A DNA stretch of 64,000 bases, taken from contig MWSW01000018.1 in the NCBI GenBank assembly GCA_002050165.1, positions 101,874-165,873 on the forward strand, given 5' to 3'. Below, piece after piece: positions 25,180 to 31,954 of this stretch (positions are counted from its first letter, which is position 1; each line of letters starts with the position of its first letter). The translations under genes were made by a program, and so were the position numbers. The stretch is from Candidatus Tepidiaquacellales bacterium OLB4/UTCHB1. Its GTDB lineage: Bacteria; Bacteroidota; Ignavibacteria; Tepidaquicellales; Tepidaquicellaceae. Under the pieces are notes generated by a model that worked only from the letters and a program-made list of their open reading frames with translations, ran no database searches and was not told where the DNA came from.

Positions 25180-25233
25180 CTCATGTTTTCGAACGCAACG
25201 AAAGTTAACTTTTGTTGTGTATAACAGTATGAG
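25180..25233. other. Two-tier hairpin between truB and tRNA-Ser
   Basis: A 54-base structure. The outer helix has 8 pairs (25180-25187 with 25226-25233), then a symmetric 5-by-5 internal loop, an inner helix of 12 pairs (25193-25204 with 25209-25220, two G-U) and a TTAA tetraloop. No T tract follows on the plus strand, so it is not a standard terminator. It could stabilise the 3' end of the truB operon, act as a Rho-related stop signal or be a small structured RNA. Confidence 0.5.
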
Positions 25234-25320: not shown

Positions 25321-25407
25321 AGAGAGATGGCTGAGTGGTTGAAAGCGGCGGTCTTGAAAACCGTTGAGGCGGCAACGTCTCCGGGGGTTCGAATCCCTCT
25401 CTCTCTG
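25321..25407 (+). tRNA. tRNA-Ser (TGA)
   Basis: A class II tRNA of 87 bases with acceptor AGAGAGA/TCTCTCT, anticodon loop CTTGAAA containing TGA, a long variable arm (TGAGGCGGCAACGTCTCC region) and T loop TTCGAAT. The discriminator is G and CCA is not encoded. Confidence 0.96.
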
Positions 25408-25452
25408 CTAATCACACCAGTTTTTATTTTTCCTCTAAGCAAATAAAAAAAT

Positions 25453-27744
25453 TTATTTTTTGCCGACGGGAATTGTTACTTTGAATGTACTTCCTCTCCG
25501 TTGCTTGGAAATTACCTTTATATCCCCCTTTAACCTTTTTACCGCGAGTTTTGTAATGTATAATCCTAATCCGGTGCCGTGAGTATTTTCAGTTGCTTTG
25601 TAAAACTGATTAAAAATGTATGGGATTTTTTCATCCTCTATACCAACACCATTATCTTCTACGGTGAGCGCATATTTGCCGTTTGATTTAAAAAAGGAAA
25701 TTTTTACATACGGATTTTTGGATTTTAGTTTACAGAATTTGATTGAATTCGCAAGCAAATTTTTAAGTATCAATATAAGGCGATACTCGTCCGTTATGAT
25801 TGAGTCCGATTGGTCAAACTCTCTGATGATTTTAACTTTCTCGAAGTTTTCCAAATGTGTTAATCCGGAAAGGGCTTTATCGAGTGCGCGGTTAATTTTG
25901 ATTTTTTTGAACCTGACCTGAGTTCTTGAATTTCTGGAGTAATCAATAATATCTCGAACGGTGTTATCAAGTTTGTCAACACTAGCCCTGATGTAGCTTA
26001 GATATTTTTTAACATCTTCGCCAATGACCTCATCAGCAACAACATTTAAAACGCCGAGTATAGAGGTAAGTGGCGCCCTCAAATCGTGAGAAACGCTGTA
26101 AACAAAATTATCCAATTCTTCATTGGTAGTTTCTAATTCGTTGTATTGATTAAAAAGCTTTTCCTCAGCCTCTTTTCTTTCTGTGATATCATTAGAGATT
26201 AACAAAAACTCCACAGGTGTTTTTTTGTCGTCGAAAATTGGAACGATAGTAGTATGGATCCAGAAAAATGAACCATCTTTTCTTCGGTTTTTTATTTCTC
26301 CTTTCCAAACATTACCCGCGTTTATCGTATCCCAAAGCTCTTTGAAAAATTCCGGACTGTGATAATCAGCCCAGAAAATGTAGTAGCTTGAACCTATTAG
26401 TTCTTCAGAGGAGTAACCTGAAATGTTAACAAGATTGCTGTTCACATATTTGATTTTACCATCTAAATCGCTTCGTGATATAATGTCTGAAACATCGAGT
26501 GCTGCTGTTAATTCTGTGAGGGCGTTGGCTAATTCAGTATTCTTGAGTTTCTGATATTCAATTTCTTTATCAGCTGTTTCAACTTCGTGCAATATCTGAA
26601 GGTTTTTGATTTTGTTTATGGATTGCTCGCTTAAAATTTCATTCTTGAATTTTATGAAAAGCTCTTTGTGATAAAGTGCATGTTTATAATCTCCCGTTTC
26701 CTTATACGTGTCTGACAGGATATCATGAATTTTATATATATACTCTTTAAATTTCCGTTTGGTGGAAATGTTTAATGCTTTCTTTTGCAGTTCAAGAGCA
26801 GTTTTGTAATTTTTAATTTTTAAATTGTAGCTTGAGATTGTGATCAAAACCATAACCTCATCGGATTTACTGTTAAATACCTTAGCTTCTTTTAATGATA
26901 ATTTCAGCAGTTTATCGGCATCATCAAGTAAACCTGTTTTTATGTAAGCATTAGCCAACCCGATTGTTGCATAAAGTTTGCCCGGAAAATCTTCAATTGC
27001 AATTTTTAATTTTAATGCCTCCTCAAAATATTGAATCGCTTTATTGAAATTTTCTAACCTCGTATAGGTATTGCCAATGTTTACAAGAGAATTTGATACT
27101 CCCCGAACATCTTTAACTTCTTTTTTTATTCTCAGACTTTTTTGCTCGTATTTTAGGTCGGATTCGTAATCACCGAGTTCCTTGTAAATCAATGCAAGAT
27201 TTGTTAGGCTGGATGCTTCACCAAGTTTATATTTAATTTCTTGAAATATTTTATATGCATCGAAATGGTAATTGAGTGAATTTAGGTAATCACCGAGGCT
27301 TGTATATGCGTATCCGAGATTGTTCAGACATATTGCCTCACCTTTTTTGTCTCCGGCTGACTTGTGTATCTTTAATGACTTTTTGTAATATTCGACAGCT
27401 TTGAAATAATTCCCCTTCCTTCGACTAATAATCCCGAAAATGTTGTAAACTTTTGCAATACTGTTCAAATCCCCGATACTTGAAAAAAGCTTTTGCGATT
27501 TGTTTAAATATGTTATCGCTGATTTAAAATCAGATAACCATGACTTTGTAACAGCAATATTTCTGAAAGCCTCTGCAAGCCCGGATTTATAATTTTTTTC
27601 TCTCGAAAGTTTTGCAGCAGCTTTTGCATATTCAAGCGATTTTGAATAATCTGTACTTCGGATTTCCTCTGATTGTATGTTCAGATTATCAATTTTTCTG
27701 TAATACTCTTTTGTTCGATTAGAGTTATCAGAATTTCGTCTCAT
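25453..27744 (-). CDS. Cytosolic TPR-PAS sensor histidine kinase
   Basis: A 763-residue hybrid with no signal peptide or membrane helix. About 30-365 holds eight or more TPR units with repeats such as NNLGYAYTSLGDYLNSLNYH and VNIGNTYTRLENFNKAIQYF. A PAS/PAC sensor follows (about 405-525, ending SNDITERKEAEE), then HisKA with the phospho-acceptor H553 in SVSHDLRAPLTS, and an ATPase domain with N-box NLLANSIKF (662-670), DNGVGIEDEK (697-706) and GTGLGLYITK. The signal is unknown; TPRs suggest a protein partner. It is divergent from a response regulator gene across 183 bases, its likely partner. Confidence 0.92.
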   Translation of the reverse strand: MRRNSDNSNRTKEYYRKIDNLNIQSEEIRSTDYSKSLEYAKAAAKLSREKNYKSGLAEAFRNIAVTKSWLSDFKSAITYLNKSQKLFSSIGDLNSIAKVYNIFGIISRRKGNYFKAVEYYKKSLKIHKSAGDKKGEAICLNNLGYAYTSLGDYLNSLNYHFDAYKIFQEIKYKLGEASSLTNLALIYKELGDYESDLKYEQKSLRIKKEVKDVRGVSNSLVNIGNTYTRLENFNKAIQYFEEALKLKIAIEDFPGKLYATIGLANAYIKTGLLDDADKLLKLSLKEAKVFNSKSDEVMVLITISSYNLKIKNYKTALELQKKALNISTKRKFKEYIYKIHDILSDTYKETGDYKHALYHKELFIKFKNEILSEQSINKIKNLQILHEVETADKEIEYQKLKNTELANALTELTAALDVSDIISRSDLDGKIKYVNSNLVNISGYSSEELIGSSYYIFWADYHSPEFFKELWDTINAGNVWKGEIKNRRKDGSFFWIHTTIVPIFDDKKTPVEFLLISNDITERKEAEEKLFNQYNELETTNEELDNFVYSVSHDLRAPLTSILGVLNVVADEVIGEDVKKYLSYIRASVDKLDNTVRDIIDYSRNSRTQVRFKKIKINRALDKALSGLTHLENFEKVKIIREFDQSDSIITDEYRLILILKNLLANSIKFCKLKSKNPYVKISFFKSNGKYALTVEDNGVGIEDEKIPYIFNQFYKATENTHGTGLGLYITKLAVKRLKGDIKVISKQRRGSTFKVTIPVGKK

Positions 27745-27927
27745 AAATGGAAAAATAATAAAATTTTTTTAGTCATGATACTGTAATTATTCCGAATTGT
27801 TAAAGAAATTACTTGTTTCTTTTAGTACCTAAAGTTAACTTGAAGGAGTGAATAAGTTAATGTTTCATCAACTTGTGCAGTATAATCTATAAAAATTCAG
27901 TGTTTTTAAACTCTTTTAGTCTTTATT

Positions 27928-29307
27928 ATGCCAAATGTACTAATTGCAGACGACGATAAATTCTCAAGAATTCTCTTGGAGAAAATTGTACAAAAGATCG
28001 GCTACACGACTGATAGTGTAGAAGACGGGAAGTCCGCACTTGAAGCATTGAAAGGGACAAAGTACGATATTTTGTTGACTGACTTCAATATGCCGGCGAT
28101 GAACGGCATTGAATTAACACGACGCGCATTGGAGCTCGATAATTCAATATTGGTAATTCTTATCACCGCATACGGTTCGATAAAGCAAGCAGTGGAAGCT
28201 ATAAAACTTGGTGCTTATGATTATCTGACCAAGCCGGTTAATAACGATGAACTTCAGTTGATAATGAAACGCGGGCTTGAAACCCTTAGCCTGCTAAAAG
28301 AGGTAATATTACTACGACAACAGTTAGACAGTATTGAAGGGCATTTTGATTTCATTACGGAAAGTAACGCAGTCAGAAAAATATTAGACGAGGCAAAGAA
28401 AACTTCCAATTCAGATTCAATTATATTAATTACCGGTGAAGGTGGTAGCGGTAAGGAACATCTCGCAAGATATATTCACCACAACAGTAATCGTGCAAAA
28501 GAGCAGTTCGTGGTTGTTAACTGTTCGTCGGTTTCAAAAGAGGAACTGGAATCGAATCTGTTCGGGGTTTCGGATACAGGCGAAGGTGTGGCAAAGTTGG
28601 GTTATCTTGAGATTGCAGAGAACGGTACAATTTTTCTTGACGATATAACCAGCGTTGACCTTGCACTCCAATACACGCTTGTTAGAGTTCTCCAGAGCAG
28701 GAAATTTTCAAGGGTGAATGAAAACAAGGTTCAAACTACAAATGCACGGATAATTGCAGCTACTTCAAATGATATACCTTCGTTAATTTCGAAGGGATTG
28801 TTCAGGGAAGATTTGTATTATATTATGAATGTATTTGAATACAATCTATTGCCGTTGCGCAATCGTCCTGAAGATATCATCCTTTATTTTAACAAATTCA
28901 TCCAGAACTATACAAATCTTTACGGCAAGAGGATTAGAGAAATTTCCTCTGAAGTGCGGGCAGCTTTGTTAAACTACGATTGGCCGGGAAATGTGAGGGA
29001 ATTGAAAAATATTGCGGAACGGGTTAGTATTCTGGCAGAGAATGAAAAAATTACACCGGATTTGTTACCGGATAAAATGTTCATAAAAGAAGAAAAGTCA
29101 AAAGTCCTTCTGACGAACGATTTTAACGAAAACAAGAGAGAAGTCGTAAGGGAATTTGAGAGAAAATTTCTAACGAAGTTTTTGAAACTCTTCCGGGGTA
29201 ATATTTCTGCTACTGCACGGGAAATTAACTTCCACCCTGTAACTCTACGCCAGAAGTTAATTGATCTGGGGATTAACCCAAAAGAGTTTAAGAAGAAGCT
29301 GAACTGA
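27928..29307 (+). CDS. NtrC-type response regulator lacking the GAFTGA loop
   Basis: 459 residues in three parts. The receiver domain (1-120) has D8-D10, phospho-acceptor D52, T80 and K102. An AAA+ domain (about 130-365) follows, then a Fis-type HTH (about 425-455, GNISATAREINFHPVTLRQK). Walker A GEGGSGKE (160-167) is intact. Between LFG (201-203) and LGYLEIAENGTIFLDD the sigma-54-contacting GAFTGA stretch is missing. Walker B ends DD (228-229) instead of DE, and I289 replaces the usual arginine after FREDLYY. Family knowledge says GAFTGA contacts sigma-54. I infer a regulator that does not activate sigma-54, comparable to the known GAFTGA-less NtrC relatives that work with sigma-70. Confidence 0.9.
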   Translation: MPNVLIADDDKFSRILLEKIVQKIGYTTDSVEDGKSALEALKGTKYDILLTDFNMPAMNGIELTRRALELDNSILVILITAYGSIKQAVEAIKLGAYDYLTKPVNNDELQLIMKRGLETLSLLKEVILLRQQLDSIEGHFDFITESNAVRKILDEAKKTSNSDSIILITGEGGSGKEHLARYIHHNSNRAKEQFVVVNCSSVSKEELESNLFGVSDTGEGVAKLGYLEIAENGTIFLDDITSVDLALQYTLVRVLQSRKFSRVNENKVQTTNARIIAATSNDIPSLISKGLFREDLYYIMNVFEYNLLPLRNRPEDIILYFNKFIQNYTNLYGKRIREISSEVRAALLNYDWPGNVRELKNIAERVSILAENEKITPDLLPDKMFIKEEKSKVLLTNDFNENKREVVREFERKFLTKFLKLFRGNISATAREINFHPVTLRQKLIDLGINPKEFKKKLN

Positions 29308-30454: not shown

Positions 30455-31954
30455 GTGTACAATTCAGAACTTAAAACCTGTGAATATTGCCATTCGAATA
30501 TTAAATTAAATTCGGATGTAGTAATCTGTCCGCGGTGTCAGACGCCATATCATCCTGATTGCTGGCTGGAAAATGACGGTTGCGCTGTTTACGGTTGCGG
30601 ATATAAAACATCATCAGATGACAATTTATCAGACTCTCTGAAACCGGATGAACTCGTAGAAATTGAATTTCTAATCAATGAAAGAAATTATATTGAAGCG
30701 ATTAACGAGTGCAAAAGCAGGCTAAAGTTAGACAAGAATAATGTTAACCTTAAACGTCTCTATAACAAAGCGGTATCTCACATTAATGTGAAAACAAAGC
30801 TGATTGAGGAAGGTGATAATTTTTTTGAATCCGGTGATTACCAGAATGCCTCAGTATTTTATAACCGCGCTTTACGTTACTGTAATGAATTTGACACGTC
30901 CGTTATCCAATCCCGACTTGAGATTATTAACCACAACATTCCACTTGAAATAAGACGAAAGAGAATCGGAAATGCGCTAACGGCTTTTATTGTTATAGTG
31001 ATGCTTTTCATTGGTGTGGCTTCTTATTATTATTTTGTCATGTTAGAAGATGAGCGTGAATTTAAAAAAATTGAATCATCGGAAAACATTAGCGATATTA
31101 TGAATACTGAGATTCAAATTTCAAAATATGAAAACTTCCGGCAACATGCCAAAGATGGTAAATGGCGGGATAAAGCAGATGAGAAAATCAATTTCATGTC
31201 GGCCTATCTCGCAAAACAACTATACCTGGATGATTGGCGCACAGCCAAAAAATATTTGAAAAAAGTAAATAGTTCGGAACTTCAAAGTGCGTACAGGGAA
31301 ATTGATAAACGGATTTACTTAGAGGCGTTGAAGGAATTTAAAGAGAGGATTAAACAAGCCAACGATTATAACAAATCCGGAAATTATTCCGAATCTAAAT
31401 ATTCAATTGAATCAGCTATAGAGATTGTAAATCATTTCCCGGAAGATAAATTCAGGGGGATTCGGGAATCGTTACAAAGTGACGTTTACTTGCTAAAGGA
31501 AAAAATATCTCAACTGGTAAAGTATAAAAATGTAATTGAGGAAATACGGGAGAAGAAAAACGACCTTGGAAATATACAGTCAACAAAAAAAGAAATTTAT
31601 TCTCCGGATGAAACCATTGTCATTTCCGGTGTGGTTACGGGAAATCTTGGTCGCGGGCTTATTGCGGTCAAGTCAACCTCCGGCAAACAAGTAGCGCTCA
31701 ATACCGGTTCGTATAATTTTTCCGAAGGTGATTATATTACATTGGAATCTATCCAGGAAGGAAAATTTAAGTTTATTAATGGTGGTGTTGAGGAATCAAT
31801 CCCAATGTATATTGCGGTGTTACCTGACCAGTCAATGAATTATTCTGCATTAACAGATTACGAGCGTTTGGCAATTCAACAACGATTGGCATTTTTGCAA
31901 TCACAGAAAAAATACCTGGACAGTTTAATGAATATTAAACTAAAAACGCATTAA
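30455..31954 (+). CDS. RING-like zinc finger, TPR, single-span membrane protein
   Basis: 499 residues starting at GTG 30455. The N-terminus (9-48) has eight spaced ligands, C9, C12, C25, C28, H33, C36, C43 and C48. This is the pattern of the prokaryotic RING family 1 treble clef. A helical TPR-like part follows (about 65-155), then one membrane helix (about 171-196), a helical charged region (about 200-370) and a beta-rich module (about 385-465, with VISGVVTGNLGRGLIAVKS). With the RING inside the cell, the C-terminal 300 residues would be periplasmic. The function is unknown. Prokaryotic RINGs have been discussed as relatives of ubiquitin-ligase fingers, but no ubiquitin-like gene is nearby. 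Confidence 0.8.
   Translation: MYNSELKTCEYCHSNIKLNSDVVICPRCQTPYHPDCWLENDGCAVYGCGYKTSSDDNLSDSLKPDELVEIEFLINERNYIEAINECKSRLKLDKNNVNLKRLYNKAVSHINVKTKLIEEGDNFFESGDYQNASVFYNRALRYCNEFDTSVIQSRLEIINHNIPLEIRRKRIGNALTAFIVIVMLFIGVASYYYFVMLEDEREFKKIESSENISDIMNTEIQISKYENFRQHAKDGKWRDKADEKINFMSAYLAKQLYLDDWRTAKKYLKKVNSSELQSAYREIDKRIYLEALKEFKERIKQANDYNKSGNYSESKYSIESAIEIVNHFPEDKFRGIRESLQSDVYLLKEKISQLVKYKNVIEEIREKKNDLGNIQSTKKEIYSPDETIVISGVVTGNLGRGLIAVKSTSGKQVALNTGSYNFSEGDYITLESIQEGKFKFINGGVEESIPMYIAVLPDQSMNYSALTDYERLAIQQRLAFLQSQKKYLDSLMNIKLKTH

Follow-up and report, generated by a model that had tools for sequence, protein, structure and literature searches.

A degenerate NtrC-type response regulator lineage retained alongside its intact sister in a family of Ignavibacteria

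The regulator and its neighbors

The window (the whole 64,000-nucleotide stretch analyzed here) encodes at 27928..29307 on the forward strand a degenerate NtrC-type response regulator of 459 residues, assigned as such by its open reading frame, domain search, tree and alignment. It consists of a receiver domain (residues 1-112; 27928..28263), an AAA+ domain with lid (about residues 141-385; 28348..29082) and a Fis-type HTH (residues 424-449; 29197..29274), all on the same strand. This is the order typical of NtrC-type sigma-54 activators, and the Pfam matches are Response_reg (2e-28), Sigma54_activat (4e-47), AAA_lid_14 (6e-24) and HTH_8 (1e-6). The receiver has everything expected of a phosphorylatable one: the acidic pair D8 and D9, the phospho-acceptor D52, T80 and K102. 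An earlier note on this DNA had described D52 and the HTH as intact, and both alignment and domain search agree. Among proteins of solved structure, NtrC1 and other NtrC-type proteins are nearest to it in sequence. The AlphaFold2 model has a mean pLDDT of 85, and its AAA+ domain superposes on NtrC1 (1ny6) over 244 residues with an rmsd of 1.8 and a Z of 30.

Upstream, on the reverse strand, lies a divergent histidine kinase with a TPR-PAS-HisKA-HATPase arrangement by domain search (25453..27744). It is a possible partner. No close full-length homologue of it appeared in the nine relatives searched, so we do not consider it a conserved partner. Elsewhere in the window (30455-31954) is an otherwise uncharacterized 499-residue protein whose N-terminus is a prokaryotic RING-type zinc-binding domain (Prok-RING_1, 1.4e-11).

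Residues of the AAA+ motor

For the L1 comparison, the window protein was aligned with NtrC1 and 21 intact relatives. The alignment reads LFG-V---SDTGEGVAKLGYLEIAENG, with three residues gone and substitutions in what remains; V---SDTGEG stands where HEKGAFTGA is expected. The GAFTGA by which functional bEBPs are recognized is reduced to -SDTGE, its Phe having become Asp and its final Ala Glu. The L1 remnant is LFGVSDTGEGVA, residues 211-222 (28558..28593). The earlier note had the sigma-54-contacting loop deleted after an LFG at 201-203. The loss of GAFTGA and the LFG boundary both stand; the loop is shortened by three residues and rewritten, not wholly removed, and the LFG is at 211-213, ten residues further on. 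No displaced GAFTGA is found elsewhere in the domain in the alignment with NtrC1 and relatives.

The damage extends to the ATPase residues. Walker B ends in DD in place of DE, as had been noted (residues 238-239; 28639..28644). The second arginine finger is replaced by isoleucine; the substitution had been recognized but numbered I289, and the residue is Ile299 (28822..28824), the equivalent of NtrC1 R299. A fourth change, beyond the three previously listed, is at the sensor-I Asn, a residue with a role in sigma-54 remodeling by bEBPs, which here is Ser280 (28765..28767). Several residues remain. Walker A (GEGGSGKE, residues 170-177, G170 to K176; 28435..28458) is intact, also as previously claimed, and N198, the first arginine finger R293 and the sensor-II Arg357 (28996..28998) are present. 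GAFTGA, the Walker B Glu and the arginine finger all have documented roles in sigma-54 remodeling (PMC7175178, PMC3162934). Since GAFTGA, the Walker B Glu, the sensor-I Asn and one arginine finger are gone, it is very unlikely, judging from sequence, that this protein remodels sigma-54 complexes.

Two sister lineages

We sampled 29 genomes of the window's family within a 294-genome sample of its class. Close homologues (E up to 1e-98) occur in 19 of the 29, and none were found in the remainder of the class sample. In a tree of 35 proteins, 27 fall into two groups: D, comprising the window protein and seven homologues from five other genera (n=8), and I (n=19). D forms one clade with support 92/85, and I is its sister lineage. 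When the tree was rebuilt without the AAA+ core, the I clade still split from all D members at 98/93, while the status of D as a single clade at its base was neither resolved nor contradicted. The D/I separation therefore does not hinge on the lost motifs, which speaks against D monophyly as an artefact of shared motif loss.

A residue matrix was compiled for 22 functional positions, counting as intact either A or S at position two of GAFTGA and either D or E at the second acidic residue of the receiver. Its rows were 18 I sequences, the eight D sequences, NtrC1 and three outgroups. All 18 scored I sequences and the outgroups are intact at all 22 positions, and NtrC1 is intact at every AAA+ site. 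All eight D members retain the five receiver residues, and their HTH is retained too. By our count, each D member has lost between 4 and 13 AAA+ residues, in differing combinations: 4 in L011-L013, 5 in L014, 6 in the window protein, 9 in L047, and 13 in L044 and L046. Only the GAFTGA change and the loss of the sensor-I Asn are common to 8/8. The replacements vary, with Ile or Asn at the first finger, Lys or Ile at the second, and Asn for the Walker B Asp. The sensor-II Arg is gone in the seven D members other than the window protein, and in two D members the Walker A motif is disrupted. The simplest reading of these sequences is that the lineage was released early from sigma-54 remodeling and that its members then eroded independently.

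The earlier note had argued that linked losses suggest a changed mechanism and not sequencing error. Sequencing error can be dismissed, since the seven homologues in five other genera share the syndrome with open frames and low dN/dS. A changed mechanism is supported by the losses throughout D, the retained receiver and HTH, and the selection data below. Within I, one genus shows a different kind of loss. In both of its species, a second I copy with an intact AAA domain stops just before the HTH (L043 2451-3737 and L045 2488-3789). In these copies it is the DNA-binding domain, and not the motor, that has gone.

Selection

Non-synonymous change between D pairs is far below synonymous change (for L011/L012, pN 0.033 vs pS 0.58), and in the least degraded pair this holds for the AAA+ domain itself (pN 0.036 vs pS 0.61). 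The pairs are among the D relatives, the window copy having no close sister, and it is in those relatives that the comparison demonstrates purifying selection. With the topology fixed, the total branch length of D relative to that of I is 1.34 for AAA+, 0.98 for REC and 0.66 for HTH. The motor is thus where constraint has specifically loosened, and in relative terms the DNA-binding end has been preserved best. AAA identity is 0.55 within D and 0.72 within I.

Genome context

The genome that contains the window is 2.42 Mb and 99% complete. The earlier note had proposed looking for rpoN; it is present, so its absence is not the cause of the losses. Of 11 family genomes checked, the eight D genomes among them, every one carries rpoN. 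The window's genome has four good sigma-54 activation domains, in L001, L002, L003 and the window protein. L001 and L002 are intact activators, and L002 is the intact I paralogue of the window protein. Coexistence is general where it can best be seen: all five D-bearing genomes that are at least 90% complete also carry I, and the two D genomes with no I detected are 77% and 88% complete.

The I gene adjoins an HPt protein and hybrid kinase or other phosphorelay parts in several genera, this genome included. D in the five other genera is separate from the I locus and has no linked kinase. Its surroundings there are conserved, with either threonine aldolase and an aminotransferase on one flank or queF-fumC on the opposite flank; locus L052 carries both. 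With I tied to a relay and D not, each may respond to signals of its own, which counts against interference between them at shared sites. The queF-fumC locus of the window's genome lacks D and has NRPS-like genes upstream, which suggests that the window copy relocated to its current site next to the TPR-PAS kinase. At that locus (L070, C4:190000-202000), the ORFs upstream of queF-fumC, where relatives have D, are NRPS-like and PPTase-like.

DNA recognition

The recognition helix of the window protein, NFHPVTLRQK, aligns with NFHPVSLRQK in I, including the intact paralogue of its own genome. The form NFHPV[TS]LRQK is common to I and most of D, and the outgroups differ. Because the helices are nearly identical and the two proteins are in the same cell, overlapping sites are to be expected. 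In two D genera (three D members), the helix has become FHQISLRQK, and sites need not be shared with I throughout D.

When the regions upstream of D and I genes were scanned for half-sites and palindromes, AAGTYAACTT turned up in front of two D genes, a post hoc result. In the window, the palindrome AAGTTAACTT lies between the kinase and the regulator (27832..27841) and is a candidate operator, likewise a post hoc lead. It has three copies in this genome, two of which flank the kinase-regulator pair, and those two are the only AAGTYRACTT sites in the genome judged intergenic. The AAGTYAACTT motif, picked after inspection, was not found upstream of I genes, and we do not rely on it. The copy at 25202-25211 is embedded in a larger imperfect palindrome, some 110 bp upstream of tRNA-Ser(tga) (25321-25408). 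A sigma-54 promoter pattern gave 16 matches in this genome vs 19 for the control on one strand, and 29 vs 15 on the other.

Relation to known systems

The window protein resembles the group 1 bEBPs NtrC and NtrC1 in its receiver-AAA+-Fis HTH order, its predicted fold and its sequence (41% against A. aeolicus NtrC1 across the aligned region), and differs from them in having lost GAFTGA, the Walker B Glu, the sensor-I Asn and the second arginine finger. By sequence, it belongs with the bEBP homologues that lack a functional GAFTGA. Among these, TyrR, VpsR, DhaR and YplP, most of which carry other N-terminal sensing domains, are outside the D/I lineage. They have a defective GAFTGA, as the window protein does (PMC3162934). 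Closer in kind are the NtrC proteins of Rhodobacter capsulatus and Caulobacter and HupR, which are also phospho-regulated NtrC-type proteins without the L1 GAFTGA. The precedents cited in the earlier note, HupR, TyrR and R. capsulatus NtrC, were therefore fair ones for loss of GAFTGA (PMC3162934, PMC10274813). Two differences set the window protein apart. Caulobacter NtrC requires its Walker A and Walker B residues (PMC10274813), whereas the window protein has lost catalytic residues too; and, unlike in those systems, its genome keeps an intact sister whose DNA-reading helix is nearly the same.

The same genome offers a further comparison. L003 (C8:44586-45878) is also a receiver-AAA-HTH protein without GAFTGA, but it has Walker A, Walker B DE, the sensor-I Asn, both arginine fingers and the sensor-II Arg. 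Loss of GAFTGA there did not entail loss of the ATPase residues. With its relatives L034-L036 and L038, L003 appears to represent a second such family without GAFTGA, retaining most or all ATPase residues in several genera. GAFTGA-less bEBPs are already known; what is new is the concerted loss of the ATPase residues and the retention of a disarmed and an intact sister as a pair. The literature was searched for inactive bEBP paralogues with an antagonist role and for GAFTGA together with Ignavibacteria, and neither search found anything.

Possible modes of action

We consider the window protein to be, very probably, a phosphorylation-switched DNA-binding regulator that does not remodel. It would have the NtrC architecture and be unable to remodel sigma-54 RNA polymerase, its ATPase and sigma-54 functions presumably lost. 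D52 should still be able to accept a phosphoryl group, and the AAA+ domain would still fold, probably as an oligomerization scaffold. That the receiver and HTH have been kept points to DNA binding under phosphorylation control, that is, occupancy of sites that depends on phosphorylation and involves no ATP-driven remodeling. The DNA would be read with almost the same recognition helix as that of the intact sigma-54 activator in the same cell. For that reason, we favor competition with, or dampening of, the intact paralogue at enhancers that the two would share. That interference of this kind is its main action we hold tentatively, as a near thing that falls a little short of probable.

The strongest competing explanation is that the window protein regulates sigma-70 promoters of its own with no special relation to the paralogue. 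Published GAFTGA-less relatives do act at sigma-70 promoters, and R. capsulatus NtrC requires binding of ATP and not its hydrolysis (PMC10274813, PMC3162934), which would suit the intact Walker A seen here. In addition, D in five genera stands apart from I in a conserved metabolic neighborhood (threonine aldolase/aminotransferase, queF, fumC). On the other hand, a helix almost identical to that of I in the same cell predicts overlapping sites, and the ATP site is eroded beyond that of Caulobacter NtrC. Two D members have lost a working Walker A, so the assembly-linked ATP binding suggested in the earlier note may hold for the window protein and does not extend to the lineage. Action at separate sigma-70 promoters is a real possibility that we would not call probable. 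Because the genome has rpoN and an intact paralogue with a near-identical helix, competition with that paralogue is at least as likely. A precedent that we count in favor of interference is the GAFTGA-less NtrC of Caulobacter, which both activates and represses at sigma-70 promoters (PMC10274813) and whose mutants affect sigma-54 genes of another bEBP (PMC12421884).

Another idea is that D supplies inactive subunits to mixed rings with the intact paralogue and so sets their activity. The predicted AAA+ fold, which superposes on NtrC1, would allow it, and in the least degraded pair the domain remains under constraint. We think it unlikely, since AAA+ is the most relaxed domain in D, its identity within D is well below that within I, and the interface arginine fingers and Walker residues have been lost in differing ways. 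Least likely of all is that the window copy is decaying toward loss after leaving its ancestral site: it has the longest tip branch of D (0.9) and is missing from the conserved queF-fumC locus, now occupied by NRPS-like genes, but its 459-codon frame is open, every receiver residue and the HTH are intact, and the HTH evolves more slowly than AAA+ across the lineage.

Implications

The evidence suggests that a similarly disarmed copy has been maintained beside a working twin in related genera and that the window gene is not simply broken. We offer more speculatively, as something possible though short of probable, that one copy of a twin pair was disarmed by routes that differ among genera and kept as a phosphorylation-gated antagonist or mixed-ring subunit. 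One practical matter is that D-type proteins score far above the cut-off of the Pfam sigma-54 activation model, so annotation may miscount them as sigma-54 activators. GAFTGA-less enhancer-binding proteins have usually been described singly; here, one ancestor has given rise to an intact and a disarmed lineage in the same genomes. The graded loss of 4 to 13 ATPase residues with a nearly unchanged DNA-reading helix is a natural series, and it bears on how a sigma-54 activator can be used without its motor and on a pseudo-ATPase as a brake on its active twin. If the disarmed twin does act in this way, it would be the transcription-factor counterpart of a pseudo-enzyme, working at the same enhancers as its intact sister.
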